From a virus, in the IMG/VR virus record IMGVR_UViG_3300022752_000385, positions 1 through 24,244 of that record: DNA of 24,244 nucleotides; one strand, written 5' to 3'. Under the pieces are notes generated by a model, which worked only from the letters and a program-made list of their open reading frames with translations, made no database searches and was not told the DNA's origin. Below, piece after piece: positions 1,029 through 21,953 of the stretch. The position numbers and the translations under genes were made by a program. The stretch's first letter is position 1; each line of letters starts with the position of its first letter.

Positions 1029-1664
1029 TCAATTGAATTTTTTTACTTTATTTTTTTCTCTCATTTTATTTGCATAATCCAACCAAGTCTTTTTAACTTT
1101 TGGCCATTGTTTTGTGGGGTTTTCAAAATTATTAATATTTTCTTCAAACCACTCTTGCATTGAATCATTAAATGATATTCTTTTAAATCTTGCTCTTTCT
1201 ATTAACCCTTTGACATATGCAGAAACTTCTTCAGGACTAGTCAAATATTCAATATAAGATTCGTATTTTTTAGGAATAATATACATGTCTTCAAAATTAT
1301 GTTGTCCAATATGTTCAATTTCATGAGTTATTGTTTCTTTAACTTCTGCAGTTAAATTAACCATATTTTTTGGAAAATCTTGAGGTCGATAAGTTATTTC
1401 AATTTCCATGTTATCAAATTCGGCGTTCGCAGAAATAGAAAATGGGTAATTAAATTCTTTGTCTCTGATAAATTTACATTTTAATTTAATATCAGCATAA
1501 TCGTTTGCCCTTTCAAAATAATAATTTTCAACAAAATTATTTTTTATTTTAAAATTTTTGATAATATCCCGATATATTTTATTAATTACGGAATCTAATT
1601 TACTTTCTTGGATTATGTTTTTTTTTATTTTATTAATAACATTTTCCAATATAAAATTTGTCAT
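1029..1664 (-). CDS. HExxH putative metalloprotease with head-targeting-like N-terminus
   Basis: The 211-residue protein carries ETITHEIEHIGQH near residue 112. This matches the HExxH zinc-protease signature, and a downstream acidic stretch (LTSPEEVSAYVKGLIERARF) could supply the third ligand. Residues 1-21 (MTNFILENVINKIKKNIIQE, then S) form an amphipathic helix ending in I-Q-E, which fits a gp21-type cleavage site. The ATG overlaps the stop of the upstream GAF-like gene by four bases, indicating translational coupling. Protease activity is inferred from one motif; a non-catalytic zinc protein is possible. Confidence 0.7.
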   Translation of the reverse strand: MTNFILENVINKIKKNIIQESKLDSVINKIYRDIIKNFKIKNNFVENYYFERANDYADIKLKCKFIRDKEFNYPFSISANAEFDNMEIEITYRPQDFPKNMVNLTAEVKETITHEIEHIGQHNFEDMYIIPKKYESYIEYLTSPEEVSAYVKGLIERARFKRISFNDSMQEWFEENINNFENPTKQWPKVKKTWLDYANKMREKNKVKKFN

Positions 1665-2272
1665 TGTTTTAAATACGTCATTAAAACCCCCCCAATTGCT
1701 GTGGCATGATTTTGTAAATGGTTAATTGAGTCAGCATCCAATTTTGTTTTTCTTTTTGTATAATCAACTGATAATACGCCAATAAATTTTTCTTCAATTG
1801 TTTTTATTGCAATTAAATAAGATGATTTGCAATTTGATTCATCCGCAATATATTTCAAACCAAAAGTTGCGATTTTTTCATCTTTGAAATCAGAAATTTC
1901 AATAACGTTATTATTATACAATTCATTTATTGATTTTGAAAAAAGATTTACTGGTATATTTTTAAAATTTGTTTGAACTGATGGAGCGTTTGGGCCAACT
2001 GTTTCATATACAATTGAAAACTTTGCCATAGATTTTCCTGTTGGGTAAAAATTTCCTCCATTATGAAATTGAGACACCCATACTCTATCTGCTCCTAATT
2101 CTTCTTTTATATGTTCTATTTTTTGGTTTACAAGTTCACTAACTCGTAATGTATCCATCACCATATCAGGTTTGCTCTTTTTTTTATCTAAAATATATTT
2201 GATATACAAAATAGCCAAAGGTCCGAAAACACCTGAAATAAATGCAATTATGATTTGATATATTCCGTCCAT
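1661..2272 (-). CDS. Membrane-anchored GAF-like domain protein
   Basis: Residues 1-30 (MDGIYQIIIAFISGVFGPLA and on) form one transmembrane segment followed by a basic stop-transfer stretch (KYILDKKKSK). The remainder (about residues 45-203) looks like a GAF/PAS-type sensor fold: RVWVSQFHNGGNFYPTGKSM, then a central strand-rich part, then KSSYLIAIKTIEEKFIGVL and a final helix with HLQNHATAIGGVL. In GAF domains such a fold binds small ligands or mediates dimers; the ligand here is unknown. It is coupled to the HExxH gene by an ATGA overlap, which suggests a shared membrane-associated role. Confidence 0.7.
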   Translation of the reverse strand: MDGIYQIIIAFISGVFGPLAILYIKYILDKKKSKPDMVMDTLRVSELVNQKIEHIKEELGADRVWVSQFHNGGNFYPTGKSMAKFSIVYETVGPNAPSVQTNFKNIPVNLFSKSINELYNNNVIEISDFKDEKIATFGLKYIADESNCKSSYLIAIKTIEEKFIGVLSVDYTKRKTKLDADSINHLQNHATAIGGVLMTYLKQ

Positions 2273-2301
2273 TTTTTTTTGATTTATAAAAAAAATTAAT
2301 A

Positions 2302-2469
2302 TTAATTTTTTTCAATTATGGACCAAATTGTACCAGTAAGAGTGATAACACCTCCAACAATTTCTGTGACAGTTGTTTCATCAATAAGACCTTTCATAAC
2401 TAAAATACCTCCGATAAAAGTAAGTCCGTGTCTTACAATACCTAAAATTTGTTCTTTTGTGAGTTTCAT
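2302..2469 (-). CDS. Holin-like small membrane protein, 55 aa
   Basis: A 55-residue frame starts at 2469 (MKLTKEQILGIVRHGLTFIG). It has two hydrophobic segments, at about residues 13-28 and 33-50, separated by a short polar turn (KGLIDETTVTE), and a charged C-terminus (SIIEKN). Length and layout match small class II-type phage holins or pinholins. The gene has its own ATATTTAT late-type box 30 bases upstream, which fits a lysis role. No endolysin is adjacent, so the holin call is an inference. Confidence 0.7.
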   Translation of the reverse strand: MKLTKEQILGIVRHGLTFIGGILVMKGLIDETTVTEIVGGVITLTGTIWSIIEKN

Positions 2470-2498
2470 TTTATAATTTTTATATTTTTATTATACTA

Positions 2499-2506
2499 AT
2501 AAATAT
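2499..2506 (-). promoter_or_regulatory. Late-type promoter box ATATTTAT for the holin-like gene
   Basis: On the minus strand the bases read ATATTTAT, about 30 bases before the ATG at 2469. The same octamer precedes about a dozen other genes in this window and is oriented with the gene each time. It resembles, but is not identical to, the T4 late box TATAAATA. Confidence 0.5.
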
Positions 2507-2523
2507 AATAAAGTTTATAAAAA

Positions 2524-2610: not shown

Positions 2611-2702
2611 AGTTTTTTTTTTAAAAATAAATGAATTGCAAAATAAAATCAAATTTATAAAAATTATATTAACTAACTTTTATTTATTTTAACAATTTTT
2701 TG

Positions 2703-2774
2703 CGGTTCATGCGAGAATCGAACTCGCGGCCCATCCGTGACAGGGATGAATGTTAGCCACTACACCAATGAACC
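2703..2774 (-). tRNA. tRNA-Asp (GUC)
   Basis: Read on the minus strand, this is a complete cloverleaf: acceptor GGTTCAT pairs with ATGAACC, U8 is present, the anticodon stem CATCC/GGATG holds loop CTGTCAC with anticodon GTC, and the T arm is GCGAG-TTCGATT-CTCGC. Discriminator G fits tRNA-Asp. Only CA, not the full CCA, follows. It lies 5 bases after the 89-residue gene and probably matures from that operon transcript. Confidence 0.93.
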
Positions 2775-2779
2775 CAATT

Positions 2780-3049
2780 TTATAGGTTCTGAACTTGTTC
2801 CATAATTTCTGATACTTCATGAGGTTCTAAATAACCAATCACATCGTTTGTCACAGAAGTTTCATAAGTTAGTTTTCCATCTTTATCTAAAACGGCAACT
2901 TCAAACAAACCATCTTTACCACCGTAAGAAAATGTGTGAGACACAACACTAACACCAAATCCATTATCAAACTGTAGTCTTGCTTGTTTTCCAACCATGT
3001 ATGGAGCATCATCAAGCATTTTAAATTCCAAATCTTCAAATTTTTTCAT
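2780..3049 (-). CDS. Unknown small protein, 89 aa
   Basis: The protein begins MKKFEDLEFKMLDDAPYMVG. The middle (ARLQFDNGFGVSVVSHTFSY, then GGKDGLFEVAVLDKDGKLTY) reads as a compact antiparallel beta domain with Gly turns, and the C-terminus (HEVSEIMEQVQNL) is a helix. I recall similar proteins as frequent phage unknowns. It overlaps the upstream zinc-finger gene by 14 bases and is followed by tRNA-Asp, so all three share the leaderless promoter at 3256-3287. Confidence 0.8.
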   Translation of the reverse strand: MKKFEDLEFKMLDDAPYMVGKQARLQFDNGFGVSVVSHTFSYGGKDGLFEVAVLDKDGKLTYETSVTNDVIGYLEPHEVSEIMEQVQNL

Positions 3050-3251
3050 AACTTTTATTTTTTTTTGTTTCTTTTAATACTGTTTTTGCACAAGCTTTGC
3101 CAAATGAAAATCCACCTTGACTTTCATGATTTGTAGGAAAACTATTCGAGTCATAATAATTTCCGTCAGTTAAAGATAACTCTAACCAAACGGCAGTTTT
3201 TGGATTTATCTTGTCTCCACATTTTTCACAATAAATTATTTTGTCATTCAT
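3036..3251 (-). CDS. Small CxxC zinc-ribbon-like protein, 71 aa
   Basis: The 71-residue protein starts MNDKIIYCEKCGDKINPKTA. C8 and C11 form a CxxC knuckle; a later Cys (GKACAKTVLKE) and His (NHESQGG) could complete a zinc site. This looks like a single zinc ribbon with a short basic tail, perhaps nucleic-acid binding. The TAnnTTTG box ends only 4 bases before the ATG at 3251, predicting a leaderless mRNA; a second in-frame Met does not exist nearby. Function unknown. Confidence 0.72.
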   Translation of the reverse strand: MNDKIIYCEKCGDKINPKTAVWLELSLTDGNYYDSNSFPTNHESQGGFSFGKACAKTVLKETKKNKSYEKI

Positions 3252-3255
3252 TAAA

Positions 3256-3287
3256 CAAAGATAAGTAGAACATTTTATACTATCAAA
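3256..3287 (-). promoter_or_regulatory. Bacteroidetes-type promoter, leaderless
   Basis: On the minus strand TTTG (3287-3284) is followed after 20 bases by TATCTTTG (3263-3256), matching the -33 TTTG and -7 TAnnTTTG consensus of the Bacteroidetes primary sigma factor. Only 4 bases separate the -7 box from the ATG at 3251, so the start of transcription should lie at or next to the start codon. Confidence 0.75.
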
Positions 3288-3331
3288 TTTTTTACAAAAA
3301 AAATTTACAATTTAAGGTTTGTATCCCGGAC

Positions 3332-3531
3332 GTTAGCGGTAATAAAATTTACTCACTAAATCGTTCCCAAATCCAACTTCGTAAAGTTTGGCTTCGTTGT
3401 GATAGTTGCTGAATAAATCGTTCAGCTTGTGGACGTGTTTCAAATTTAACAAATTGAAAAGCCAAACTTTGTGTGCTTTCAACATAAACATATACTGGTG
3501 TCATAATCCGTAAATTTTTCGTACCGCTAAC
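3332..3531. repeat. Inverted repeat GTTAGCGGTA flanking a 51-aa frame
   Basis: GTTAGCGGTA at 3332-3341 is exactly inverted at 3522-3531 (TACCGCTAAC). The match continues inward with small differences through an AAAATTTA stretch, giving about 20 bases per arm. The GTTAGC core resembles integron recombination cores. The enclosed segment holds one small frame and is richer in G+C than its surroundings, suggesting a transferred cassette. Confidence 0.7.
3349..3504 (-). CDS. Cassette-borne small protein, 51 aa
   Basis: Taking the ATG at 3504 gives 51 residues (MTPVYVYVESTQSLAFQFVK to WIWERFSE). A longer start at 3558 would run through the inverted repeat and is less likely. The protein is a beta-rich half followed by an Arg/Gln-rich helix (ETRPQAERFIQQLSQRSQTL). 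Its composition (more Gln, Arg, Trp, fewer Lys and Asn) differs from neighbouring genes, which supports recent acquisition. The flanking inverted repeat and adjacent attC-like palindrome suggest a mobile gene cassette. Function unknown. Confidence 0.5.
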   Translation of the reverse strand: MTPVYVYVESTQSLAFQFVKFETRPQAERFIQQLSQRSQTLRSWIWERFSE

Positions 3532-3652
3532 AAAATATAACCAAAAGTGGGGCGGCAATTCCCAAAATCAGCTATTGTGCTTATAATTTACTTTTGTAGG
3601 CAAGTCAGGGTTCAGCACTATAATCCCCACCTTCGGTTATACTCAACCGTTA
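3522..3652 (-). repeat. Integron attC-like palindromic element
   Basis: TATAACC-AAAAG-TGGGG at 3536-3552 is inverted with two mismatches at 3625-3641. Outside these lie TAAC/GTTA ends (GCTAAC at 3526-3531; GTTATG at 3650-3654) and inside lies a further pairing GTGCT (3577-3581) with AGCAC (3614-3618). Nested imperfect palindromes with GTTA-type ends and an unpaired centre are the plan of attC sites, and similar elements occur in Bacteroidetes genomes as I recall. No integrase is in the window, so attC is a hypothesis; a MITE-like repeat is the alternative. Confidence 0.5.
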
Positions 3653-3868
3653 TGAATAATAAAAATCTCTAATTTCAGTTTTTACAATAATTAGTCTATT
3701 ACCCAATTCAGGGTTAATTTTGATAATCTTCTCCCTTTCTTTGTTAAGAGTTTTTTCATTATTAGACCATCTTTCAAACTCATATAATCTTGTCCCATCA
3801 AGTAATACAAAATTATATATCCCTGTTTTTGACTTATTGAATTCGCCTACTACTGATATTTTTTTCAT
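3650..3868 (-). CDS. Unknown protein, 72 aa
   Basis: The start at 3868 (MKKISVVGEFNKSKTGIYNF) is chosen because a longer frame would run back through the tRNA at 3886-3994. The 72-residue product has a beta hairpin start, a DGTRLYEFERW segment, and a basic helix with KEREKIIKINPEL, ending in KTEIRDFYYS. No motif is recognised. Its stop codon lies inside the outer end of the attC-like element, the usual arrangement of a gene and its attC in an integron cassette. Confidence 0.7.
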   Translation of the reverse strand: MKKISVVGEFNKSKTGIYNFVLLDGTRLYEFERWSNNEKTLNKEREKIIKINPELGNRLIIVKTEIRDFYYS

Positions 3869-3885
3869 AACTTTTATTTTTTTAG

Positions 3886-3994
3886 TTGTCAGGACAGGAT
3901 TCGAACCTGTATGAAGCTTTTCACTTCTGTTTAATCGTGATTGCCACGATACCAAGTAGTCTACTTGTGCGTTAACCAATTCCGCCACCTGACT
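3886..3994 (-). tRNA. tRNA with long variable arm and about 20 extra bases, isotype uncertain
   Basis: On the minus strand the 3' half is clear: T arm ACAGG-TTCGAAT-CCTGT and acceptor CCTGACA pairing with AGTCAGG apart from the terminal pair. The D arm GCGGAATTGGTTAACGC resembles tRNA-Leu. A GAAG/CTTC variable arm marks a class II tRNA. Between D and variable arms sit two hairpins rather than one: CAAGTAGACTACTTG and ATCGTGGCAATCACGAT. Neither 7-base loop has U33. At 109 bases it is about 20 too long. The second hairpin shows CAA (Leu), but the isotype is unsafe. Confidence 0.6.
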
Positions 3995-4015
3995 TCTATC
4001 TATATTAATAAAGTG

Positions 4016-4089
4016 TCACCCGTATGGGATTCAAACCCATGTTCTTTTCCGTGAAAGGGAAACGACTTAAATCACTTGTCCAACGGGCG
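4016..4089 (-). tRNA. tRNA-Glu (UUC)
   Basis: The minus strand gives acceptor CGCCCGT/ACGGGTG, D stem GAC/GTC, anticodon arm TTTCC-CTTTCAC-GGAAA with anticodon TTC, and T arm ATGGG-TTTGAAT-CCCAT. Discriminator A; CCA is not encoded. All stems close, with one G-U pair in the acceptor. Confidence 0.92.
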
Positions 4090-4128
4090 AAATTAAGATG
4101 AGTCAATTAAAGTTTGTTAATCTTTTAG

Positions 4129-4197
4129 CCGGCATTACCCGTTTCCAACAATCACCACGTGGAGGTGGATTAACTACGATTGTTTTGCGGGAGCCGG
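4129..4197. other. Long interrupted hairpin between tRNA genes
   Basis: CCGGC (4129-4133) pairs with GCCGG (4193-4197), CCCG (4138-4141) with CGGG (4188-4191), and AACAATC (4147-4153) with GATTGTT (4178-4184); the apex holds a CACC/GGTG pairing. The right arm overlaps the 3' end of the tRNA-like gene at 4188-4271. It may be a processing signal or a folded spacer in the tRNA transcript. Confidence 0.5.
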
Positions 4198-4271
4198 ACT
4201 CGAACCAAATACCCACGGGCACATCTCGCTTATCAGGCAGACCCTATCGCCATCAAGGTTTATCTTCCGTA
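4188..4271 (-). tRNA. Degenerate tRNA-like element, Ile-like anticodon loop
   Basis: A T loop (TTTGG-TTCGAGT-CC) and a D-arm-like AACC/GGGT stem are visible on the minus strand. The anticodon region GCCTGATAAGC is identical to the usual heart of tRNA-Ile (GAU). The anticodon stem has only two firm pairs, and no 5' segment pairs with the 3' acceptor strand TCCCGCA. A CCC/GGG hairpin sits in the variable region. Boundaries are approximate. It may be a decayed gene or need an unusual fold. Confidence 0.4.
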
Positions 4272-4272
4272 G

Positions 4273-4349
4273 TCGGCACAGTAGGAATCGAACCTACATG
4301 GGACCTATTAACCTTTCAACCGCGTATCAGACGGAGGGTATATGTGCCG
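4273..4349 (-). tRNA. tRNA-like gene with anticodon-like hairpin in the D-arm position
   Basis: Minus strand: perfect acceptor CGGCACA/TGTGCCG and perfect T arm GTAGG-TTCGATT-CCTAC, total 77 bases. The interior does not form a normal D arm plus anticodon arm. A hairpin CCGT-CTGATAC-GCGG, with loop anticodon GAT (Ile), starts only 14 bases from the 5' end. It is followed by GCGGTTGAAAGG, which looks like the D loop of a class II tRNA. Either the order of elements is altered or the gene is decayed. Confidence 0.5.
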
Positions 4350-4364
4350 TATTGTATATTTTCG

Positions 4365-5152: not shown

Positions 5153-5476
5153 TTACATCCCAATTTTTCTTTCAAAATCTCTTAATCTATCTCGATTTTT
5201 ACTATATATTCCAAAACCTTTATCATCATCTTCATGTGCTCCATAACCTCTTTTTAATTTTTTATGAATTGCTTGAGCCAGTTTTTTTGCGTTATCTGAG
5301 TCCATTAAAAAATCTGCAAATTCAACCATTTCATCATTTCCAACTTCAGAAAACTCAAAACTAGAAATTATATCGTCAATAATTTTTCCAATATTTCTTT
5401 TTTCTCTTTCATTTTCTAATATTACTCGTCTAGTTATTCTTGACAAGTCTCTTTCGTTAAATCTTGTTACCCTCAT
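5153..5476 (-). CDS. Putative head-cargo protein, 107 aa
   Basis: Residues 1-22 (MRVTRFNERDLSRITRRVIL, then EN) follow the shared amphipathic pattern and end in I-L-E/N, a fit to the (I/L)-x-E cleavage rule. The rest is helical: KRNIGKIIDDIISSFEFSEV, an acidic middle, and SDNAKKLAQAIHKKLKRGYG, then a basic end (KNRDRLRDFERKIGM). A small, charged, helical product fits an internal head protein. It has a late-type box at 5492-5499 and a terminator at 5101-5130, so it is a single-gene transcript. The family is unknown. Confidence 0.75.
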   Translation of the reverse strand: MRVTRFNERDLSRITRRVILENEREKRNIGKIIDDIISSFEFSEVGNDEMVEFADFLMDSDNAKKLAQAIHKKLKRGYGAHEDDDKGFGIYSKNRDRLRDFERKIGM

Positions 5477-5520: not shown

Positions 5521-6078
5521 TTATGCAAAATTGTTATTTATAGAATTGTTCATAACAAAATCAAAATTTCCACAAGGGAGTCTATTTTGTAGGTTTTCAG
5601 AAAGTTTTTTATTACTTAGAGTAAATTTGAAAAACCCATCAGAAAAGAAAGTTTCATCTCTAAGCCCTTTTGTTTCCAACCTTGTAGAAAATTTTTCTTC
5701 ATCACAAACATAGGTAATCCTTGATAATCCCTGAGACCATTCTAAGGCACCACCTTCTAAATTATTAATTATAATTTCAACACCTATATCACCAGTCAGT
5801 ACTCGAACACTTTTAATTTTACCTCTCAGGTTAAATTCTTCATTATAACTACTCCAAACAATCATGTCATCTTGTGAAAGTGGTTGAAGTTTAAAGGATT
5901 CTTCGGTATATTCGTTATATTCACTATTAACCCATTTTGTTTCTGATGGGATTGTAGTAAATTTTACGGTTTTTCCAATTAAATCATCGAAATTTACATT
6001 TTGTGGATTAGATTCTTTAATAATTCTTTTAACTATATTAGCTAAATCAGATTCTGTAAGTCTTATAATTTTTTTCAT
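5521..6078 (-). CDS. Putative head-cargo protein, 185 aa
   Basis: The start at 6078 (MKKIIRLTESDLANIVKRII, then KES) is chosen over a longer frame that runs into tRNA-Leu. Residues 1-22 are nearly the same as the start of the 83-residue protein at 11250-11501 although the bodies differ, and end in I-K-E/S. The body has a beta-rich central region (IGKTVKFTTIPSETKWVNSE; LRGKIKSVRVLTGDIGVEII) that could be an OB- or SH3-like barrel, and an Asn-rich tail. No enzyme motif is seen. A late-type box lies at 6095-6102. Confidence 0.78.
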   Translation of the reverse strand: MKKIIRLTESDLANIVKRIIKESNPQNVNFDDLIGKTVKFTTIPSETKWVNSEYNEYTEESFKLQPLSQDDMIVWSSYNEEFNLRGKIKSVRVLTGDIGVEIIINNLEGGALEWSQGLSRITYVCDEEKFSTRLETKGLRDETFFSDGFFKFTLSNKKLSENLQNRLPCGNFDFVMNNSINNNFA

Positions 6079-8262: not shown

Positions 8263-8886
8263 TTAAAATCCTCTAGCAAGGTCAATAGCAGCTTCACAAG
8301 TAGTATTACCAACCACTAAACCTGCAGTGTCTAAAGGAACTCGCAGAGCTCCTCCGTTATATTCAATGTAAATTATATTATTACCAAATTTTGGTTCTGC
8401 TCTTGCGGCTTCCCATTCTTTTTTTAGAGTTGCTTTGGTTGTAGGGTTTCTTTCTGCTACCCATTTATCATAAGCATATTGTACCGTACTATTCCAAGAT
8501 GTTAAACTGGTTTTCGCTATTACCGTTACAGTGGCCGTTTTCCCTACAGGGACAATCGCTTGTTCCTCACCATTATCATGATTACTGTGTTTTGAAACTC
8601 CACCAATGGAAACTTTATGGTCTGTCAATTGGTCAGTACTTAATCCTTTTCCAAAAACTCCAATTCTAGTTATGTATGCAATTTCTGTTCCGGTATTCTT
8701 AACCGTGCAAGTAACTAAAAATTGGTCCATACCTGTACTACAAACGGTTCTATTAACTGCCGCAGGACCTGTAACAAGTGCTAATGTTGTATTACCTAAA
8801 CCTTCCATCAAATATTGTCTTGATGATGCATTTTGATGCATTTCCAAAATTCTTTGTTTTTCTTGTTCTGAAATTATAAACTTCAT
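8263..8886 (-). CDS. Putative head-cargo protein with RQYLMEG processing site, 207 aa
   Basis: The N-terminus (MKFIISEQEKQRILEMHQNA, then SSRQYLMEG) holds two (I/L)-x-E sites: I-L-E at 13-15 and L-M-E/G at 26-28. The same SRQYLMEG block begins the otherwise different protein at 9480-9983. The body looks like an extracellular-style beta domain: VNRTVCSTGMDQFLVTCTVK, NTGTEIAYITRIGVFGKGLS, then VPVGKTATVTVIAKTSL, which recalls Ig-like or late-embryogenesis-type folds. It has a lone Cys pair (C50, C60). Late-type box at 8921-8928; convergent terminator at its 3' end. Confidence 0.78.
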   Translation of the reverse strand: MKFIISEQEKQRILEMHQNASSRQYLMEGLGNTTLALVTGPAAVNRTVCSTGMDQFLVTCTVKNTGTEIAYITRIGVFGKGLSTDQLTDHKVSIGGVSKHSNHDNGEEQAIVPVGKTATVTVIAKTSLTSWNSTVQYAYDKWVAERNPTTKATLKKEWEAARAEPKFGNNIIYIEYNGGALRVPLDTAGLVVGNTTCEAAIDLARGF

Positions 8887-9479: not shown

Positions 9480-9983
9480 TTATTTTGGATTTTGAGTTGG
9501 TGGTATAATGTTTTTAACAAATTTGACCATACATCTTAATGGTTTTACCCCACCATTAATCGTATTCATACTTATAACGACTCCACTTTCTTCAGATAGG
9601 TTATATTGTTTACCCATATTTCCAATGAAATAGTTTTGTAAATTTTTATCACTAGTTATAAATCGATATTGATTTTTACCAACAGCCGTTCCTGTTGATA
9701 TTTGAGTTCCACCAAATTTTATACCCGCAATACTTTTAAATTCATCTAAATTCAAAACTATATTTGACATAAAATCTTCTATTTTAACTTTAACAAAAGA
9801 ACTACTATCAAAATATTCTTTATTGTTTGTATCCATTTTGATAGGAACGTTTACTATTATTGGTAATTGTCCATTTTCACTACCTTCCATTAAATATTGT
9901 CTTGATTTTTCTTGTAATCTTCTAATTTCTAACATCAAGTTTGATTGTTGGATGTGTCTAATTTTGCTATAACTTCTATTCAT
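9480..9983 (-). CDS. Putative head-cargo protein, 167 aa
   Basis: The N-terminal 33 residues (MNRSYSKIRHIQQSNLMLEI, RRLQEKSRQYLME) are basic and helical and end in L-M-E/G, matching the processing block of the 207-residue protein. An earlier L-Q-E is at 23-25. The rest is beta-rich with few charges (LPIIVNVPIKMDTNNKEYFD; LDEFKSIAGIKFGGTQISTG) and a final KPLRCMVKFVKNI. The family is unknown. A late-type box lies at 10001-10008. Confidence 0.75.
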   Translation of the reverse strand: MNRSYSKIRHIQQSNLMLEIRRLQEKSRQYLMEGSENGQLPIIVNVPIKMDTNNKEYFDSSSFVKVKIEDFMSNIVLNLDEFKSIAGIKFGGTQISTGTAVGKNQYRFITSDKNLQNYFIGNMGKQYNLSEESGVVISMNTINGGVKPLRCMVKFVKNIIPPTQNPK

Positions 9984-10460: not shown

Positions 10461-10760
10461 TTACATTCCAATAATCAAATCATCAGGATTAAATCCTTTT
10501 GAACCTTTGATTTTATCTTCAACTTCATCGTACATAAATGTTTTAACTACCGCCAAAATTGATTGTTCTGATTGAGCAATTTTTGTTTCCATCCAATCTT
10601 CAAGTTGTTCACCTTCTTCCATCATTTCCCACATTTTATGTGCCAATGTTGCAATTGTAAAAAGTTGTTGTTTTGCCATGTAAGAACCTCTTTCTTCAGA
10701 TTCATGTAAAGAGTCTTTTATTTGTCTAAGTTGTTCTTCTGTTATAATGATTCTTCCCAT
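10461..10760 (-). CDS. Putative head-cargo protein, helical, 99 aa
   Basis: Residues 1-20 (MGRIIITEEQLRQIKDSLHE) are followed by S, giving an L-H-E/S site. The body (SYMAKQQLFTIATLAHKMWE, MMEEGEQLEDWMETKIAQSE) resembles a helical domain I recall from T4-like phages of aquatic bacteria, with the pattern of KxQL, then a W-x-x-x-KI helix and a final AVVKTFMYDE helix. Function there is unknown. It follows the 157-residue gene with one base between, so it is part of a cargo operon ended by the terminator at 10411-10439. Confidence 0.78.
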   Translation of the reverse strand: MGRIIITEEQLRQIKDSLHESEERGSYMAKQQLFTIATLAHKMWEMMEEGEQLEDWMETKIAQSEQSILAVVKTFMYDEVEDKIKGSKGFNPDDLIIGM

Positions 10761-10761
10761 T

Positions 10762-11235
10762 CTAAGCTCGTTTTACAGTTTTTATAAAACCTTCATTTAT
10801 TCCTTTTAATTGTGCAATTGCATCATAATAATTAGTTAATGCTTCCTCTAATTTATCATATCTTAATTCCAAATCTTCTCCTCTTGATGTTTTTTCTAAT
10901 TTTTTAATTCTATTTTCTATTTTGGTTTTTGTTGCTTGTTCATACAATTTATCTAAATCTACTTCTATTTCTTCTAATTCCTTTTGTAAATTTTTTGCTC
11001 TGTTTCTAACTCTTGCATAAGCAGCTTCCATATTTGAATTCAATAAACTTCCACCAGTAAAAAAAATGCCAATATTTTCTCCAAACGTAACAAATCTATT
11101 AAAAAGACCAACAGTATTTGCTTTTAATCTATCCCCCAAACCTTCATTTATCATAATTTTTTGTGAGCGTTCTATTATGTATCTTTTTTCTACTTGCTCA
11201 TTTAACTCTTTTATTTTTTTAATTTTTGTATTCAT
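10762..11235 (-). CDS. Putative head-cargo coiled-coil protein, 157 aa
   Basis: The N-terminus (MNTKIKKIKELNEQVEKRYI, IERSQKIMINEG) has three candidate sites: L-N-E (11-13), I-I-E (20-22) and I-N-E/G (29-31). Residues 33-70 include a hydrophobic FGENIGIFFTGGSLLNS stretch, and residues 70-150 form a long charged coiled coil (ARVRNRAKNLQKELEEIEVD; TKIENRIKKLEKTSR). A Lys/Glu-rich coiled coil would suit a scaffold-associated or internal head protein. It is the middle gene of a three-gene operon. Confidence 0.75.
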   Translation of the reverse strand: MNTKIKKIKELNEQVEKRYIIERSQKIMINEGLGDRLKANTVGLFNRFVTFGENIGIFFTGGSLLNSNMEAAYARVRNRAKNLQKELEEIEVDLDKLYEQATKTKIENRIKKLEKTSRGEDLELRYDKLEEALTNYYDAIAQLKGINEGFIKTVKRA

Positions 11236-11249: not shown

Positions 11250-11501
11250 CTATCTTAATTTTCTTTTTAATTCTTCGATGATGTTTTCTAACATTCTAAC
11301 TTGATGTTTGACCAAATCTTTGGCTTCCTCAATTTTTCTTCCATCTCCTTTTTTTGTTGCAGAATCTAAATCTTCTAAAGAATAAGATACTCTTTTACAT
11401 GTACCTCTGAAATCTTCAGCAACTTGATTTATGCTTTCATTAATTGTTCTTTTAACAATTTTATTTAAATCAAATTCAGTCAGTCTAACTATTTTTTTCA
11501 T
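11250..11501 (-). CDS. Putative head-cargo protein, 83 aa
   Basis: The first 23 residues (MKKIVRLTEFDLNKIVKRTI, NES) are nearly the same as those of the protein at 5521-6078, ending I-N-E/S. The remaining 60 residues are unrelated to that protein: VSYSLEDLDSATKKGDGRKI and ISKDLVKHQVRMLENII-like helices with a basic end (EELKRKLR). After cleavage only a small basic helical peptide would remain, similar in style to T4 internal proteins. It is the first gene of the operon, with no clear late box upstream. Confidence 0.75.
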   Translation of the reverse strand: MKKIVRLTEFDLNKIVKRTINESINQVAEDFRGTCKRVSYSLEDLDSATKKGDGRKIEEAKDLVKHQVRMLENIIEELKRKLR

Positions 11502-11523: not shown

Positions 11524-11892
11524 TTACCATGTTCTACAAGCCCAATATCTTGGTTTCCATCTTGGGCCAGGATTATCGCAATTGTGTCTTGCTCTAAATG
11601 AACGTCTCCTTTCAGGATTGTTCTTTTTAATTACCATTCTTTTTCCGTGTGCCGATTTTCCACCAAACCCAAAGTTCACTTTAACAACCTTACCTTTGTC
11701 GTTTTTAACGTATACCTTGAACTTTTTGATGTCTCCTTGCATAATCTTACCAAGTTGAACTTTTCTACCTTGATATTCAGCTTCTTGTAATAAGTTTATT
11801 TCTTCAACATTACCATAAATGTCTTCATAAATAAAATCCTGATGGAATGATTCTTCAATTAAAATCTTTCGTATGGTTGATAAAATATTCAT
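11524..11892 (-). CDS. Basic phage protein with RHNCDNPGP and RYWACRTW motifs
   Basis: The ATG at 11892 (MNILSTIRKILIEESFHQDF) gives 122 residues; a longer frame crosses a terminator. The start ends in L-I-E/E, a cargo-type site. The second half is very basic and highly patterned: KKFKVYVKNDKGKVVKVNFG, then NPERRRSFRARHNCDNPGPR and a RYWACRTW end. I recall this C-terminal module as widespread in uncultured large phages, with unknown role; two Cys and one His could bind zinc. A late-type box lies at 11897-11904, only 4 bases before the ATG. Confidence 0.82.
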   Translation of the reverse strand: MNILSTIRKILIEESFHQDFIYEDIYGNVEEINLLQEAEYQGRKVQLGKIMQGDIKKFKVYVKNDKGKVVKVNFGFGGKSAHGKRMVIKKNNPERRRSFRARHNCDNPGPRWKPRYWACRTW

Positions 11893-14213: not shown

Positions 14214-14711
14214 TTACAGTTCAAGAAAATAAAAATCTTTTAAATTATCTGAATAGTGTAAATCGTATCCTAAATTTTTGTATAAGTTTTGTGCGACATC
14301 GTTTTCTCGATGAGTAATTAATGTACAATACTTAAATCCTTCTTGTTTAGAAACATCGTGAGCCAAATTCATAATTTGTTTTCCAAAACCATTTCCTCTA
14401 AAATTTTCATTTACATACACATCGTAAATGTATGTGGCGTTGTCGCTATTAAAAAAATTTTCATCACAATTTTTTCTACACCAACTTTTATCTTCATATA
14501 ATCTAGGTATGTCATAATCTAATGCCCACCCATTATCAAAAGATACTATATTCGCATAACCAATTAAATTTTCATCTAAACTCATAATTTTGATTTTTTT
14601 TCCAAAAGTATTTTTAGTTTCACCTTCAAATAAAATGTTAGTTGAAATATGATTACTTTCAAAAATATTCATCATAGATTTTATCCGAAATAATTGTTCG
14701 TGTAATTTCAT
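14214..14711 (-). CDS. GNAT acetyltransferase with head-targeting-like N-terminus
   Basis: Residues 1-29 (MKLHEQLFRIKSMMNIFESN, HISTNILFE) hold sites I-F-E/S (16-18) and L-F-E/G (27-29). After them comes a GNAT fold: IMSLDENLIGYANIVSFDNG, then motif A VNENFRGNGFGKQIMNLAHD (R-x-x-G-x-G, acetyl-CoA pyrophosphate binding), then YCTLITHRENDVAQNLYKNL with GYDL, the usual motif B region. The acceptor substrate is unknown. It lies 6 bases after the DHH gene. If packaged, it could modify host proteins or small molecules at injection, as T4 Alt does by ADP-ribosylation. Confidence 0.85.
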   Translation of the reverse strand: MKLHEQLFRIKSMMNIFESNHISTNILFEGETKNTFGKKIKIMSLDENLIGYANIVSFDNGWALDYDIPRLYEDKSWCRKNCDENFFNSDNATYIYDVYVNENFRGNGFGKQIMNLAHDVSKQEGFKYCTLITHRENDVAQNLYKNLGYDLHYSDNLKDFYFLEL

Positions 14712-14717: not shown

Positions 14718-16217
14718 TTAACTATTTTCAATTTTTTTATTTAGAATATCCACAAAGGTATTTTTCATATCTTTTACTAAATCCGAATAAGTTCTTTTTG
14801 GTATATCTTCAGTTTCATATTCAAAGTTTATACCTTCCCTTCTTATCTGATTAAGAGCCGCTTCAATTTGTTTTTCTGATAACTTTCTAAATCTTAAAAG
14901 TTTTTGTTTGATGTCTTTGACAAAATTATTATCTCCTTCGTAATTTGCAATTGGTAATGTTTCTTCAGGTAAATCTTTTGTGTATGGTTTATCATATCCG
15001 CTATATAAAAAGTTTATACCTGATATGTTTGTAATACATTTATGTCCTCCTGAATTTGCCTGTAAAAAGTCATAACCGTTAATTGTTTGTTTTTCAGAAT
15101 CAAATGAAGGCATTTTACCATATAACGCCATCATATCTTTTGATGTAAAACCAACTGACTCAGGTGTTGCCTCTCTTTCTGCAATTCTTTTAATAACTCT
15201 AAAACTTAAAATTTCTTTTTTTAATTCAGATTTAAACTTATTTAATACTTCGTCTTTAATTTCACCTAAGTTTATACCTTTAAGTGCTCTTTCTTCTTTA
15301 AATGGATTACAAGATGCTTGAACCATCCCAACTTGTCCACCAAGACCAGTCACTAAAAAGTCTGCATCAGGGTGTAATCTAAATGGAACGTATCTATCGT
15401 AAGAACCTTTTTTCATGCTACCTAACCCATATTGTGATATAACATTTCCTGTTTTTTCAATTACACCTTCTTTTTGTCTTGCTTGTAAAAACTTTTCTTG
15501 ATTTTGTGTCATGGTTTCAATAGACGCATAGTCTTGGTCTTTTGCCATTTTTTTAATGTTAGTAAGAATACTAATTAATGATGGTTTTGAGTTCATCACT
15601 AAACTTTCCATAAAATTATCATTATTTTTATAAGCTAAAAGTAGCTTATTAACCACCAATCCCATTAACATTTTATTTTGTTTTAGTGAACTATCTTTAT
15701 CAAATTTATATAAAAAGTTCATTACCATTTCTGGCGTTATTTTATTGACAGCAAAATTTGCAGAATCAACAGTTGATATTAACATTATATCATCTGATGG
15801 AAATATTTCTTTAGGGGATATTACTTGTGATATTGTTTCAACATTAGACCTCGCGTGTCTGAAACTTGTTGCGGTGTCGTCTTCAACACCAGCCTGACTA
15901 TCGTGATGGTCTGTATGAATAACAAACATTGGTTTACCGTGTGCAAAATCTACAAGTACTGGCATCACATCACCCTCACCTTCAGGTTTTTTAATTGCAA
16001 ATTCTTTTGTTCCGTATTGAATAACTTCACAATCAACCACAGTAATACCATTTTGCTCCAAATAGTTTTTCATGGCAATTGCTGTTGTGACGCCATCCAA
16101 GTCTTGGTGAAAGTAAATTTTAGCTTTTTTATATCTTTTAGCAATATTTTTAATATCTCTAATTCCTGATTCTTTAATCAACATTTTAAATTGACTTTCA
16201 GTTATAATAATTTTCAT
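14718..16217 (-). CDS. DHH-family phosphoesterase with head-targeting-like N-terminus
   Basis: Residues 1-16 (MKIIITESQFKMLIKE) followed by S give an I-K-E/S site. Residues 34-40 carry HQDLDGVTTAIA (motif I of the DHH superfamily: H-x-D-x-D-G), then VLVDFAHG, and the signature IHTDHHDSQ at about 117-125, with a later LISTVDSANFAV acidic motif. This order is that of RecJ/NrnA/c-di-AMP phosphodiesterase enzymes, which use two metal ions to cut phosphodiester bonds. A C-terminal ANSGGHKCITNISGINFLY recalls the DHHA1 GGGH-like element. Substrate could be DNA, short RNA or cyclic dinucleotide. ATGA overlap with the upstream gene. Confidence 0.88.
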   Translation of the reverse strand: MKIIITESQFKMLIKESGIRDIKNIAKRYKKAKIYFHQDLDGVTTAIAMKNYLEQNGITVVDCEVIQYGTKEFAIKKPEGEGDVMPVLVDFAHGKPMFVIHTDHHDSQAGVEDDTATSFRHARSNVETISQVISPKEIFPSDDIMLISTVDSANFAVNKITPEMVMNFLYKFDKDSSLKQNKMLMGLVVNKLLLAYKNNDNFMESLVMNSKPSLISILTNIKKMAKDQDYASIETMTQNQEKFLQARQKEGVIEKTGNVISQYGLGSMKKGSYDRYVPFRLHPDADFLVTGLGGQVGMVQASCNPFKEERALKGINLGEIKDEVLNKFKSELKKEILSFRVIKRIAEREATPESVGFTSKDMMALYGKMPSFDSEKQTINGYDFLQANSGGHKCITNISGINFLYSGYDKPYTKDLPEETLPIANYEGDNNFVKDIKQKLLRFRKLSEKQIEAALNQIRREGINFEYETEDIPKRTYSDLVKDMKNTFVDILNKKIENS

Positions 16218-17212
16218 AAATAAGTTTCTCCAATATTTGTTAATTCTTCAGAAGAATATTTATCTCCATTTTGTTTTTTCCCTCCATTTGTAACTTCCCA
16301 ACCAATCATTCTGTTAATAATACTTTGTTGTATCCATTTGTCAGTTAGAGGATTTCCAAGTCTGTAATTACTTTCTTCAGGATTATTATAAAAATAAAGT
16401 TGTTTACCAATATCCCAGTATGCCCAACTTTTACTCATACCGGCAGCACTTATTTCTTTATTTACTTTGGTTGTCATCAAATTTTTGAACCTGTCAACTA
16501 AATTATTTACCAACGATTCAATTTCTTTTGGGTTTTCTTTTGATAATGCTTCGGCGTATTTTTTCATACTTTCACTGGGTTCTGCAGTATTAAATCCAAC
16601 ATCACTGTAGTTTAATTTTGATATGTATTGGTCAGGACCGCTCGTTGGTTCGTTTTTTTTGACGTTTGGTTGATTAGTTTTAAAATTTGAGGTTATTTTA
16701 TTCGCACTAGCTATTCTTTTTAATCTATAAACCCTTTCTTTTAGTCCTGGTATTTGGTCAACAATTTTATTTACTTCGTCCCAATTTATTGAAAAACGGG
16801 TTGATAAACCAGAAACCCCAAAAGTATCACCACATTGATTGTTATCCCCCAAATTAAGAAGACATAACGCTTTGCACATTACCAAGTACCAGTCATTTCC
16901 AGTTAAAAAAAAATGTTTTTCTACATAACCTCGAAACTTCCAGTCTTTTATAAATAAATTTATTAATTCATCAATGGACTTGGCTTCTTCTATTTTTTCA
17001 TAAACAAAAATTCTTTCCCCAGCATCAATAGATTCTTGTCTTAATTCTAAATATTTTCCCCCATTATTCAATTGATTTACTGCATCCTCATGTGATGTAT
17101 TTTTAACATATTCAAACCAATCATCTATAATTTTTTTATCCTCTTCTTTAGTTTCACAAATTCCCATGATTTGTTTGATTCTTAAAATTTGTTCGTTGAG
17201 TATTGTATTCAT
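16214..17212 (-). CDS. Putative head-cargo protein, 332 aa, unknown body
   Basis: Start at 17212 (MNTILNEQILRIKQIMGICE, T) gives an I-C-E/T site; a longer frame crosses the terminator at 17241-17259. Residues 25-160 are mostly helical (DWFEYVKNTSHEDAVNQLNN; GNDWYLVMCKALCLLNLGDN), a linker follows (KTNQPNVKKNEPTSGPDQYI), and a C-terminal helical domain (SKENPKEIESLVNNLVDRFK; SWAYWDIGKQLYFYNNPEES) ends the protein. No known fold recognised. It is the first gene of a three-gene operon with DHH and GNAT, led by a late-type box at 17217-17224. Confidence 0.78.
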   Translation of the reverse strand: MNTILNEQILRIKQIMGICETKEEDKKIIDDWFEYVKNTSHEDAVNQLNNGGKYLELRQESIDAGERIFVYEKIEEAKSIDELINLFIKDWKFRGYVEKHFFLTGNDWYLVMCKALCLLNLGDNNQCGDTFGVSGLSTRFSINWDEVNKIVDQIPGLKERVYRLKRIASANKITSNFKTNQPNVKKNEPTSGPDQYISKLNYSDVGFNTAEPSESMKKYAEALSKENPKEIESLVNNLVDRFKNLMTTKVNKEISAAGMSKSWAYWDIGKQLYFYNNPEESNYRLGNPLTDKWIQQSIINRMIGWEVTNGGKKQNGDKYSSEELTNIGETYL

Positions 17213-18633: not shown

Positions 18634-19819
18634 TTATATTAAATTTAATTTCCTCTGGTTCAACGTTAGACCCTTTCATGGTTTCTGAATCTACCAAATA
18701 ATCTTCATCATTTTGATATTCATTTAATAGTTCATTATTATCAATTGTTCCGTATTTACCAATAATCTTGTCTACATTTATTTTGGTATTCATTTTCATT
18801 TTAATTTCCATTAATGTTTCTGCACTTTCAAGTGATTTTATAACTTCAATCAAAACTTTATATGGGTCTGCATTTGATGCCGGTCTTCTGTCTTCTAAAT
18901 AACCTTTCCAACTTTTGGCAGTTTGTTTTGGGATTCTTATTGACGCCCCTCTATCTCCAATTCCATAACTATATTTTTCAATTGATTGTGTTTCGTGTTT
19001 TCCTGTAAGTCTCAAATTGTTTTCAAAACCATAATTTTTGATATGTTCATGATGTCTTGAGCCAAATGTATTTAAAATCGCTTGAAAATATTCGTATCCA
19101 CCCAATGTTCTCATTCTATCATTTGAAAAGTTGGTGTGCATACCTGAACCATTCCAATCACCTTTGAGTGGTTTTGGATGTAAAATTATTTCATAATTGT
19201 ACTTCTCTGAAAGTCTATGTAAAAAATATCTTGTCATCAATAAATCATCAGCGGCTTTTAAACTTCCTTTAGAAAAAACTTGATATTCCCATTGTCCTAA
19301 AGCAACTTCGGCGTTGATGCCAGTAATTTCCATACCATATAATAAACATAACCCCATATGCTCTTCTGCAAATCCTCTTCCAACAACATTTCCTCCGACA
19401 CCACAATAATATTTTCCTTGAGGTTCTACATGTGGAATTTCATGACCTAAAATAATATTATTTTTTAAATTTTTAATAAAATATTCTTGTTCAAAACCAA
19501 CCCATAAATCTTCTTGATTTTTAACTTTTGACCTAAGATTTGTTTTGTCGGGTGTGCCGTCTGAATTTAATACTTCACATAAAACATATACCCGGTTATT
19601 TTCTAATGGAAAAGTTTTTTGAGTATAATATCTAACTGGTTTTAATATTTTATCTGAGTTTTTTGTGTTAGCTTGTTTTGTCGATGAACCATCAAAGCTC
19701 CATTCCGGAAATTTGAATTCATTTACATTTGTATTTATTTCTTCAACTTTTACTTTGCTTCTAAGGTTTGGTTCTGACTCATATCCGTCTAACCACACAT
19801 ATTCTAAAGTTATTTTCAT
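18620..19819 (-). CDS. Type II glutamine synthetase
   Basis: The 399-residue protein shows the GSII (eukaryote-type) signature series: KFPEWSFDGSSTKQA (about 37-51), WVGFEQEYFI with the metal Glu pair, YYCGVGGNVVGR, ITGINAEVALGQWEYQV, GDWNGSGMHTNFS, RLTGKHET, YGIGDRGASIRIP and EDRRPASNADPY. These residues bind metals, glutamate and ATP, so the enzyme should make glutamine from glutamate and ammonia. The C-terminus has about 50 extra acidic residues beyond the usual end. ATGA overlap with the 43-residue gene and a 14-base overlap with DUF3310 place it in a late-type operon as a metabolic gene carried by the phage. Confidence 0.95.
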   Translation of the reverse strand: MKITLEYVWLDGYESEPNLRSKVKVEEINTNVNEFKFPEWSFDGSSTKQANTKNSDKILKPVRYYTQKTFPLENNRVYVLCEVLNSDGTPDKTNLRSKVKNQEDLWVGFEQEYFIKNLKNNIILGHEIPHVEPQGKYYCGVGGNVVGRGFAEEHMGLCLLYGMEITGINAEVALGQWEYQVFSKGSLKAADDLLMTRYFLHRLSEKYNYEIILHPKPLKGDWNGSGMHTNFSNDRMRTLGGYEYFQAILNTFGSRHHEHIKNYGFENNLRLTGKHETQSIEKYSYGIGDRGASIRIPKQTAKSWKGYLEDRRPASNADPYKVLIEVIKSLESAETLMEIKMKMNTKINVDKIIGKYGTIDNNELLNEYQNDEDYLVDSETMKGSNVEPEEIKFNINGKQ

Positions 19820-19947: not shown

Positions 19948-19952
19948 TGGTA

Positions 19953-19960
19953 ATAAATAT
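19953..19960 (-). promoter_or_regulatory. Late-type box ATATTTAT for the glutamine synthetase operon
   Basis: Minus strand ATATTTAT then TACCA and the ATG at 19947. It should serve the five-gene unit ending at the terminator 17241-17259. Confidence 0.5.
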
Positions 19961-19964
19961 GAAA

Positions 19965-20714
19965 TTAAATTGATTTTGTCAACTTAACATAATTCAAAAT
20001 TTTAGATTGAAGAATGTAATTTAGTATTTTCCTTTTGGTTATTGGTAACAATGTTTCACTATATGGAAAGTTATTGTTATGATTAACTTTGAAAAAAATA
20101 AGATTGTTATAAACATTTGGTTCTTTTAAATTTTTTATCAACGTTTTTTTGTTTTCAAACAAATCAGGTTTTAATTTAAAATCATCTATTTCACATATTT
20201 TTTTTACACAACATTTATTATCCATAACTTCTTTTTTAATTTGTTTGATAATAAACTCATACAGATATTTTTTTCCTTTTTCTTCAATAATAAAAAGTCC
20301 TTGTTTTTCTTCAAAGTTTTTTTCATTTTTTATAACACTTAAAGAAACACTGTCATTTACTAATTCCCAAATTGCTTTAGCATGGTCAAAGGAACTTTGT
20401 AATTTTTCAGATGAAAATTTACATATTTTATACAATTCTAAAATATTTTGTCCTGACAATAATGGTATTTCTTGACTAACTAAATCAGATATTAAAATTT
20501 CTTCATCTTTTTCTTTTAAATTTTTTGTTAGTGACAAATATTGACCTTTTTGTAATAACAAATTTATGTTGGCTAAATGAAGTGATAAAAATTGAAAATT
20601 AGGGTATAGTTTAAAACTATTTAATTCTTTTTCAATTTTTTGTAAATAGGCTAATAAAATATATTGTTTGTGTTCAAAATCTATTGGCTCTTGAAATACC
20701 CAATTTGTGTCCAT
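19965..20714 (-). CDS. Conserved phage hypothetical protein, 249 aa
   Basis: MDTNWVFQEPIDFEHKQYIL and LAYLQKIEKELNSFKLYPNF, then FLSLHLANINLLLQKGQYLS, form a helical N-terminal half. I recall proteins with the same NWVFQEPIDFEHKQY opening in uncultured T4-like phages. The middle has LQSSFDHAKAIWELVNDSVS and the C-terminal half is beta-rich and Lys/Asn-rich (GLFIIEEKGKKYLYEFIIKQ). It has no cargo-type N-terminus. A near-match late box GTAAATAT (plus sense) lies at 20745-20752. The role is unknown; its conservation suggests virion or replication work. Confidence 0.8.
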   Translation of the reverse strand: MDTNWVFQEPIDFEHKQYILLAYLQKIEKELNSFKLYPNFQFLSLHLANINLLLQKGQYLSLTKNLKEKDEEILISDLVSQEIPLLSGQNILELYKICKFSSEKLQSSFDHAKAIWELVNDSVSLSVIKNEKNFEEKQGLFIIEEKGKKYLYEFIIKQIKKEVMDNKCCVKKICEIDDFKLKPDLFENKKTLIKNLKEPNVYNNLIFFKVNHNNNFPYSETLLPITKRKILNYILQSKILNYVKLTKSI

Positions 20715-20753
20715 AGGTAAAAAATAAGAAAAATATGTTAATCAGTAAATATA

Positions 20754-21953
20754 TTAATTATATCTCATAATAATATATGTCTCCCCATTTACATTAATTT
20801 CATCGTGGTCTCCGTCATAACTGCCTAAAATATCCCCCCAACTATCACTATTAATTACATAATCTATTACAGCCTCCGTATCAACATGATACAAAATTTC
20901 ATTCTTATCAAATCCTTGGTCAGATAAAAATGAAACAAAGTCATCTTCATTATCGTCAACATAAGATTCAATTGCCGATTCTATTTCGTCTTGGTTGTAT
21001 TCACCCTCTGGATTTTCTTCAACGTCTTCAATGAGTTGTGTTATATCATCAATTTCGTCTTGGATGCTATTTTCGGTTTCTTCATCCAAATCTTCATTAT
21101 TTATTCTTTGTTCTAATTTTTCAATTTTTTGTTTGTATATATTTACAATTTTTTCTTGTTGTTGTGTCAAATCTTTTTTAATTCCCCAATTTTCAGGGTC
21201 ATCATAAATTGATTCTGATATATAATCACTTAAAAAACCTCTAACCGAATCACTATCCAAATGGTCTTCCCAAACCCAAGAAGAAAATGCTTCATATCCA
21301 AGTTCATCTATTCTTGCCTCAATTGAACGTCTAGCTGCACTTTCTATTTCATCTTCACTATATACCATCCATTCTGTGTCTCTATCATCCTCACCTAACC
21401 AAGTAAAAAAACCACCACCATAATGTGTGTAATTTTCAGGATAAATAAAATATTTGTCCTCAAGAACTTCTTCCTCACTAAAACCATCATCATAATAAGA
21501 CAATTTACCTTTATTTTTTAACTCTTCGTATAATGCTTCTGTTTGGTAGGATATTTTTTTTCCATTTTCAATATTCCAAGCGTCTTCTTTTCTAAGTTTA
21601 TCTAAATAATTGAGTTTTTCTTGAAGTATTTCTTGTTGTCTTATAGTATGTCTTTTACTATACCAATCTCTAACGTTTTTAGCTTTATTTTCATCAAAAA
21701 CATCAACGTTACTATAACTAATATCTAAATTGCCTTCAATTTTAGAAAGTGAATCAAGATTTTTAATTTCTTTGTCCCATTGTAAATCTAAATCACCGGT
21801 GATTATAATATCTTTATTTTTATAATATTTTTTTAGTAATGCAACATCACTATTGAAATATTTCAAATTTTCTTTGAAGTCTTCAGGTGAAATTTTTACA
21901 ACGTTTTCAATTTCTTCACAAATAACCTTTCTTATTAACTTTTTTAATGACAT
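20754..21953 (-). CDS. Large acidic putative head-cargo protein, 399 aa
   Basis: The N-terminus MSLKKLIRKVICE, followed by E, gives an I-C-E/E site after a very basic helix. Residues 45-90 show leucine-rich spacing (IITGDLDLQWDKEIKNLDSL; KIEGNLDISYSN), and the rest is strongly acidic: long Asp/Glu helices (YSEDEIESAARRSIEARIDE; DLDEETENSIQDEIDDITQL). Such a polyacidic protein could mimic DNA or pack against basic proteins. A late-type box lies at 21959-21966. Family unknown. Confidence 0.78.
   Translation of the reverse strand: MSLKKLIRKVICEEIENVVKISPEDFKENLKYFNSDVALLKKYYKNKDIIITGDLDLQWDKEIKNLDSLSKIEGNLDISYSNVDVFDENKAKNVRDWYSKRHTIRQQEILQEKLNYLDKLRKEDAWNIENGKKISYQTEALYEELKNKGKLSYYDDGFSEEEVLEDKYFIYPENYTHYGGGFFTWLGEDDRDTEWMVYSEDEIESAARRSIEARIDELGYEAFSSWVWEDHLDSDSVRGFLSDYISESIYDDPENWGIKKDLTQQQEKIVNIYKQKIEKLEQRINNEDLDEETENSIQDEIDDITQLIEDVEENPEGEYNQDEIESAIESYVDDNEDDFVSFLSDQGFDKNEILYHVDTEAVIDYVINSDSWGDILGSYDGDHDEINVNGETYIIMRYN

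Follow-up and report, generated by a model that had tools for sequence, protein, structure and literature searches.

The 24,244-base virus record IMGVR_UViG_3300022752_000385 (the window) covers part of the genome of a giant, uncultured T4-like phage. Thirteen proteins encoded in it, with unrelated bodies, begin with short segments, here called tags, that end in (I/L)-x-E. These starts are most probably interchangeable capsid-targeting propeptides, predicted to be cut after (I/L/V)-x-E by a prohead protease of family S77, with the cargo behind them injected into the host; a probability of roughly 0.86 is assigned to this reading. It is based on the modularity of the tags, a conserved Glu at their border, an S77 protease in relatives of the window, the same motif in capsid and scaffold-like proteins, and an N-terminal extension of HVA1-like proteins that co-occurs with the protease. 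From these observations we infer docking, cleavage, packaging and injection.

No near match to the whole window is present among 50,697 phage records. The window is largely collinear with G001, a 292-kb record containing homologues of 23 of the 31 window proteins tested, 21 of which lie in the same order at 2.7–28.5 kb. Fourteen of the 31 match G002, and 21 match the fragment G011. G001 and its kin carry a T4-like head cluster of terminase, portal, S77 protease, scaffold-like protein and gp23-like capsid protein (families assigned by testing the G009 copies, gene order compared across clusters).

The thirteen tagged proteins

All thirteen proteins are complete open reading frames (ORFs). As claimed in the original prediction, each has (I/L)-x-E at the end of a start 13–33 residues long, and no two of the bodies match by BLAST at E 0.1. 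Ten of the ORF starts stand as first given; the other three are revised, with 5521 (whose longer form overlaps a transfer RNA gene, tRNA-Leu) starting at 6078, 11524 at 11892 and 16214 at 17212. The residue following the Glu is S, N, G, E or T, and the R that had also been proposed occurs at an alternative site in 10762.

Six tag classes were sorted by eye: type A (MKKIIRLTESDLxxIVKRVIxE), type Q (MKxIITExQ...), type B (MKxFIISExEKxRILxMH...), type C (MNxSYSKIRHIQ...), type D (MxxxxIIKKVLxE) and type E (MNLxEQIxRIKxxM...). The window tags are listed below; positions are coordinates of the whole stretch, proteins are named by their left coordinates, and an arrow marks the predicted cut point.

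1605..1664, minus strand: tag of the 1029-1664 protein, 20 residues, ends IQE↓S
5414..5476, minus strand: type A-like tag of the 5153-5476 protein, 21 residues, ILE↓N; relatives bear type A tags
6013..6078, minus strand: type A tag of the 5521-6078 protein, 22 residues, IKE↓S
8803..8886, minus strand: type B tag of the 8263-8886 protein, 28 residues, LME↓G
9885..9983, minus strand: type C tag of the 9480-9983 protein, 33 residues, LME↓G
10701..10760, minus strand: type Q tag of the 10461-10760 protein, 20 residues, LHE↓S
11143..11235, minus strand: type C-like tag of the 10762-11235 protein, 31 residues, INE↓G; inner site IIE↓R at residue 22
11436..11501, minus strand: type A tag of the 11250-11501 protein, 22 residues, INE↓S
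11854..11892, minus strand: type D tag of the 11524-11892 protein, 13 residues, LIE↓E
14658..14711, minus strand: type E tag of the 14214-14711 GNAT acetyltransferase (PF00583, E 3.8e-14), 18 residues, IFE↓S
16170..16217, minus strand: type Q tag of the 14718-16217 DHH phosphoesterase-like protein, 16 residues, IKE↓S
17153..17212, minus strand: type E tag of the 16214-17212 protein, 20 residues, ICE↓T; L038 homologue has GIFE↓S there
21915..21953, minus strand: type D tag of the 20754-21953 protein, 13 residues, ICE↓E

Proteins 11524 and 16214 were searched without the initiator Met (ends 11889 and 17209). The 1029-1664 body contains HEIEH, an HExxH motif (HELEH or HELRH in five listed relatives) that we take to mark the metallopeptidase class, hence “probable metallopeptidase”; a Pfam search with this body gave nothing above cut-off. 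The relatives of 10461-10760 that were shown have I/L/M-x-E at the tag end or adjoining it. Neither protein 10461 nor protein 20754 has a homologue in named phages by the search made.

Tags are exchangeable modules

A regular expression for type A, applied to the fetched loci, retrieved 216 distinct proteins, 214 of which have I/L/V/M-x-E in the stretch searched. The site lies at the same distance in 187 and has I or L in 191 of the 214. When 150 representatives, taken from body groups without mutual BLAST match (E 1e-3), are aligned at the Glu, tag columns hold 1.1–4.4 bits and the Glu, fixed by construction, 3.6; the following positions hold 1.1, 0.32 and 0.19, then 0.03–0.22 bits. Judged by this alignment, the tags are modules with a sharp end at the Glu.

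Across all classes there are 416 distinct tagged proteins. Clustering of the bodies that are of sufficient length yields 216 clusters, of which 149 have a single member. Nine of the 216 combine different tag classes, and in all of the examples printed a hydrophobic-x-E follows the tag core. Bodies from the window take part in such swaps. A homologue of the 8263-8886 body in L082 (51% identity) starts with a type A tag, and one of 9480-9983 in L001 (38%) has a type B tag, its body cluster spanning types A, B and C; the 20754-21953 body cluster also occurs under a type A tag in L092, and a weak body relative of 5521-6078 in L058 (28%, E 3e-7) has a type B tag. The proposal of one modular signal serving many cargos, including enzymes, is supported by the protease of relatives, the capsid site and the HVA1-like cargo described below.

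The tag pattern exceeds chance

The motif alone proves little, because four of the 16 other window genes have (I/L)xE in residues 10–35. A loose regular expression matches 14 of 39 called window genes; its rate is 15% for shuffled sequences and 21% (15 of 72) for stretches within proteins. Bare (I/L)xE counting was rejected as evidence, being too weak by itself against shuffles and protein interiors. The tags, in contrast, go far beyond what chance would give. In the window and six relatives, 9–27 genes of each record begin with one of the strict tag classes, defined after the loci were inspected; shuffles give 0–0.05 and internal stretches none.

A tag profile was built from loci that exclude the six test contigs and all tags identical to a start under test, though these loci are still relatives of the test genomes; an earlier profile, trained partly on loci within test contigs, gave a nearly identical result. 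Observed and expected genes at a cut-off of 10 are 37/1.8 in G001, 24/1.9 in G002, 14/0.9 in G009, 16/1.0 in G012, 7/0.7 in G011, 13/0.8 in G010 and 5/0.2 in the window. The further copies that the original prediction had proposed to look for are thus found, at 7–37 high-scoring genes per relative versus 0.7–1.9 expected. Because type A dominates the profile, it recovers four of the 13 window tags; the fifth window gene above cut-off, 10153, is outside the 13 and may be a further tagged gene (..LLKKIIME↓D). Two short window proteins, 219-398 and 10153-10350 (minus strand), score above 10 with the profile.

The amphipathic character ascribed to the starts is evident over the last 14 tag residues: the mean hydrophobic moment is 0.57, against 0.31 when shuffled, and it is above the sequence's own shuffle mean in 162 of 190 cases. 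In one genome per bacterial or archaeal species the tag pattern yields two stretches, both in one metagenome-assembled genome, and in viral records at least 119, where a neutral start pattern gives 28. A 30-residue tag had no match in named phages, in a search that has no positive control and in which low-complexity filtering may hide matches.

An S77 prohead protease accompanies the tags

Of 13 large records chosen for the type A pattern or a tagged DHH gene, 12 match PF03420 (S77), with E values of 5e-23 to 3e-27 that are all over the curated cut-off. Of the S78 and gp21 types between which the original prediction left the choice, only the latter, S77, is therefore taken as the protease class, since S78 is found in none of the 13. 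The closest PDB chain to the S77 protein, which also matches PHROG 207, is 5jbl, “Prohead core protein protease” (E 2e-17), which we take to be T4 gp21.

The gp21-like protease that was to be looked for is present in all 14 tag-bearing records larger than 200 kb (eight from the first set and six more) and has no match in the 24-kb window itself; it is found in the collinear G001 and in G002. Eight of 16 tag-bearing records of 100–200 kb have S77, as do 12 of 38 records of 38–133 kb, compared with none of 11 control contigs; the controls were picked with a neutral start pattern and are not matched for size or phage type, and as they differ in phage type the contrast is no more than supportive. 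The 38 are the tag-bearing records above 35 kb among 80 listed loci, minus L081, L089, L092, L093, L096 and L160. Those six plus 39 further type A loci make 45 loci, for which 44 records are listed (L196 is not among them), with S77 in 18, four of which were already in the first set. The record of L190, G112 (269 kb), carries two S77 protease genes (E 2e-30 and 2e-24).

The same motif occurs in head proteins

Twenty-five loci, from 24 records with S77, were searched for head proteins. The capsid precursor segment ends LI[NY]E↓[AS] in all 23 loci with a capsid gene, after residue 60 in G009. T4 gp23 has FLTE↓A at residue 65, and its propeptide is given as 65 residues (PMC5694885). Judged by the presence of this motif, the capsid precursor would be matured at the same kind of site as the tags. 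In 21 of 25 rows the scaffold-like protein shows LV[KR]E↓S close to its N-terminus; the site is missing in the divergent L320 and L325, and two further rows show another part of the protein. A protein adjoining the capsid gene (17 loci, two showing the later part only) has at least eight different starts on a common body. The portal gene of G012 (39737-42505, L253/L254) encodes 922 residues, with an intein-like insertion noted by eye, versus 597–615 in four relatives.

The 11524-11892 body, which some records assign to an HVA1 family, has homologues in 18 records of named phages. Eleven of these were examined, leaving out two more immuto strains, duplicate immuto and HTVC008M records, CRP-901, CRP-2 and CRP-235; the eleven are not independent, and the Aegir and Kolga copies are identical. 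In all three phages with S77, an extension ends directly at the body (C48C1 LTE↓AEYQG, HTVC008M LEE↓AEFQG, immuto LDE↓GEYRG). None of the eight phages without an S77 hit has L-x-E directly ahead of the body, and in seven of them the protein starts straight at the body (e.g., MAKYQGR). Within these records, the extension is present or absent in step with S77; the search for protease classes beyond S77 in the eight covered the CRP-6 copy. That copy (L369:333-1022, Roseobacter phage CRP-6) joins the HVA1-like body to a prohead protease domain of the XkdF type (S78_2, E 7e-18), hinting that the basic HVA1-like protein may be a head component in other phages too.

The window protein 11524-11892 has a second site, LQE↓A, after residue 37, directly ahead of the conserved basic body. 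All 20 distinct window-clade relatives show [LI]xE↓AEY[QK]G at the body border, and therefore the predicted mature N-terminus, AEYQGR, resembles the leaderless proteins.

Cargos of the tagged genes

Cargo content was compared between 110 tagged proteins (a single representative for each body cluster, limited to the longest complete sequences among 124) and 110 untagged ones (random among 746 genes from six genomes), two sets that were sampled differently. The tagged set matches 16 Pfam families, among them LysM, peptidoglycan-binding, lysozyme, acetyltransferase, SET, DHH and hydrolase, and 33 PHROG families; the 25 of these listed include endolysins (wall hydrolases), transglycosylase, acetyltransferases and one tail protein, and no replication family. 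The untagged set matches 116 PHROG families, the 25 listed being led by replication (helicases), baseplate and tail. The tagged profile fits accessory proteins delivered to the host, as T4 internal proteins (IPs) are described (PMC12373910), and wall hydrolases as cargo would fit a role in entry. PADLOC gave single hits at E 1e-4 to 1e-3 over the 110 tagged proteins, which were set aside.

The relatives of the window DHH protein are alike from SGIRDI or TGIRDI on and differ in starts of 7 to 19 residues, which end in (I/L)xE followed by S or T in the rows printed. They exchange MKIIITESQ..LIKE↓S, MKRLIKE↓S and MRDLIIQVITEESKKLLKE↓S, and Glu16 is invariant in 28 aligned sequences. In the predicted structure of 14718-16217, residues 1–19 have a per-residue confidence (pLDDT) below 50; the model is modest overall (mean pLDDT 73), with 14 Foldseek matches to a DHH/RecJ-like fold at E up to 0.001 and template modeling (TM) scores of 0.17–0.42. 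At L054:10001-12247, the DHH protein is joined to a SET domain (PF00856, E 8e-9).

Four named-phage records match the DHH family, and starts were read in two, huge phages of 635 and 642 kb with 42% and 38% identity; LR756501 and LR756503, whose matches span a third of the DHH protein, were left out. The two homologues begin MISKYNQFINE↓E and MLRKYGQFINE↓E, which are T4-like tags. Two T4-like start patterns, which found two T4 genes (MKTYQEFIAE↓A; presumably ipII and ipIII) as a positive control, match 4 times in one huge phage and 5 times in the other, and have no match when read backwards. One match (L348) lies inside a longer frame and is perhaps due to chance; six of the other matches form three homologous pairs across both phages. 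The MKTYQEFIAE-type pattern has no match in G001 or G002. S77 matches in the huge phages are weak (E 1e-4 and 2e-5) and below cut-off.

Other features of the window

An untagged glutamine synthetase-like protein (PF00120, PF03951), unexpected for a phage, is encoded at 18620-19819 (minus strand). Seven tRNA genes are scattered among the tagged genes at 2702-10365. Between the tagged genes lie three small proteins whose starts resemble signal peptides by eye (6761-7168, minus strand; 7785-8210 and 9019-9441, plus strand), and these are probably exported, not packaged.

Proposed capsid targeting and its alternatives

Each tag would dock its cargo in the prohead scaffold core as the head assembles. 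The S77 (gp21-type) protease would then cut after (I/L/V)-x-E, freeing the mature cargo inside the head for injection together with the DNA. As cargos, the DHH phosphoesterase, acetyltransferase, probable metallopeptidase and basic protein, together with the wall hydrolases that relatives encode, would target the host as infection begins.

Several observations weigh against this scheme. Besides lacking a match in the window, S77 is absent from G011 and from all 19 fragments (26–112 kb) around relatives of the window DHH gene; the distance between DHH and protease genes, about 135 kb in G001 and about 73 kb in G012, is probably beyond the reach of most of these fragments. Flavobacterium phage immuto has S77 and few tags (2 of 214 by strict classes; 4 versus 1.2 expected by profile), and CRP-6, with no S77, has LEE in its own short start, not adjoining the body. 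Taking the first hydrophobic-x-E downstream of the tag core as the site, 16 of the 416 tagged proteins have none. Residues after the Glu vary (Q, E, N, S or D in type A; A or S in the capsid protein), and the strict classes were drawn up with the loci already in view.

Since the variation after the Glu makes cleavage unneeded to explain conservation, and the tag helix is conserved far upstream, the starts could instead be peptides that dock to the scaffold or another phage structure and stay uncut, the Glu being part of the docking helix. However, the motif closes tags of different classes and recurs in the capsid and scaffold-like proteins, and the L-x-E↓A/G of HVA1-like proteins sits where most leaderless homologues of S77-less phages begin; uncut docking is accordingly considered improbable. 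The likeness of type A starts to one another, and the proximity of several tagged genes in G009 (128–149 kb), might reflect a repeated 5′ gene segment spread by recombination, through gene capture or an effect on expression, and carrying no protein signal. Such a segment would hardly account for type A matches with varying codons, or for classes that are unlike in sequence yet share an end motif and replace each other on the same body, and it is regarded as very unlikely. Equally slight is the chance that the starts, amphipathic and, in types A and D, rich in K and R, target a membrane, a replication compartment or another place in the infected cell, with a coincidental likeness to the protease motif: the tags co-occur with S77, and the capsid protein has the same site.

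Relation to known systems

Cleavable capsid targeting has its closest parallel in T4, where IPI–III and Alt carry a short N-terminal capsid-targeting sequence (CTS) ending in L/I-x-E on otherwise dissimilar proteins (PMC9026906, PMC3012670, PMC5694885, PMC12373910). Of IPIII, no more than the first 10 residues were needed for packaging, with cutting controlled by residues 8 and 10. The gp21 enzyme cuts after L/I-x-E, and the CTS has been suggested as a possible means by which T4-like phages package various proteins (PMC9026906). T4 itself encodes three IPs in addition to Alt; across its relatives, ten or more IPs are reported (PMC12373910). A gp21-family protease is common to both systems, and in T4 that enzyme also cuts the capsid precursor. 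The present tags differ in sequence, fall into several classes per genome, head 7–37 high-scoring genes per relative, and have enzymes (DHH phosphoesterase, GNAT) among their cargos. As far as the letters tell, the system works like T4 capsid targeting, with tags that are different, more numerous and of multiple classes.

In the phiKZ-like phage SPN3US, a prohead protease likewise trims propeptides of DNA-co-packaged proteins (gp47, gp50, gp53 and gp54), but several of these exceed 100 residues and end in A-x-E or S-x-E motifs (PMC5694885), in contrast to the 13–33 residues and I/L-x-E seen here. Lake phages of Bacteroidetes with bS21 share a cluster of terminase, portal, prohead protease and capsid genes around a reverse-strand bS21 gene (PMC9723584). 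A reverse-oriented gene of 61–64 residues is present in all five head clusters and is likened to bS21 by place and orientation only. The nearest relatives of the G009 capsid protein are from a huge uncultured phage, Microcystis phage Mel-JY01 and Flavobacterium phage immuto; this capsid kinship and the bS21-like placing of the small gene make a Bacteroidetes host likely for the window phage. The bS21 paper differs in suggesting that bS21 itself is possibly packaged, and shared N-terminal tags are unmentioned in the passages searched of this paper, PMC7824862 and PMC12363816. Neither four tag letter strings nor any description of a multi-class tag system was found in the literature searched, in which preprints are uncovered and subscription papers sparse.

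Implications

The protein content carried in phage heads is normally learned from virions. With a tag that can be read from sequence, proteins that are candidates for injection could be listed, and the list tested, for many giant phages that have not been cultured; few of these proteins belong to a known family (110 tagged proteins match 16 Pfam families). The tags also suggest that the T4 internal-protein system is one dialect of a wider one, and they open the function of each cargo to simple tests. The chances are about even that giant T4-like phages, probably of Bacteroidetes, use capsid targeting as a general address code, with several tag dialects side by side in one head, free exchange of tags between cargos, and dozens of different proteins, enzymes among them, delivered by one virion. 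If so, cargo enzymes could destroy nucleotide immune signals, as for the DHH phosphoesterase, or could act by modifying proteins of the host, and sequence alone would reveal which proteins an uncultured phage injects.

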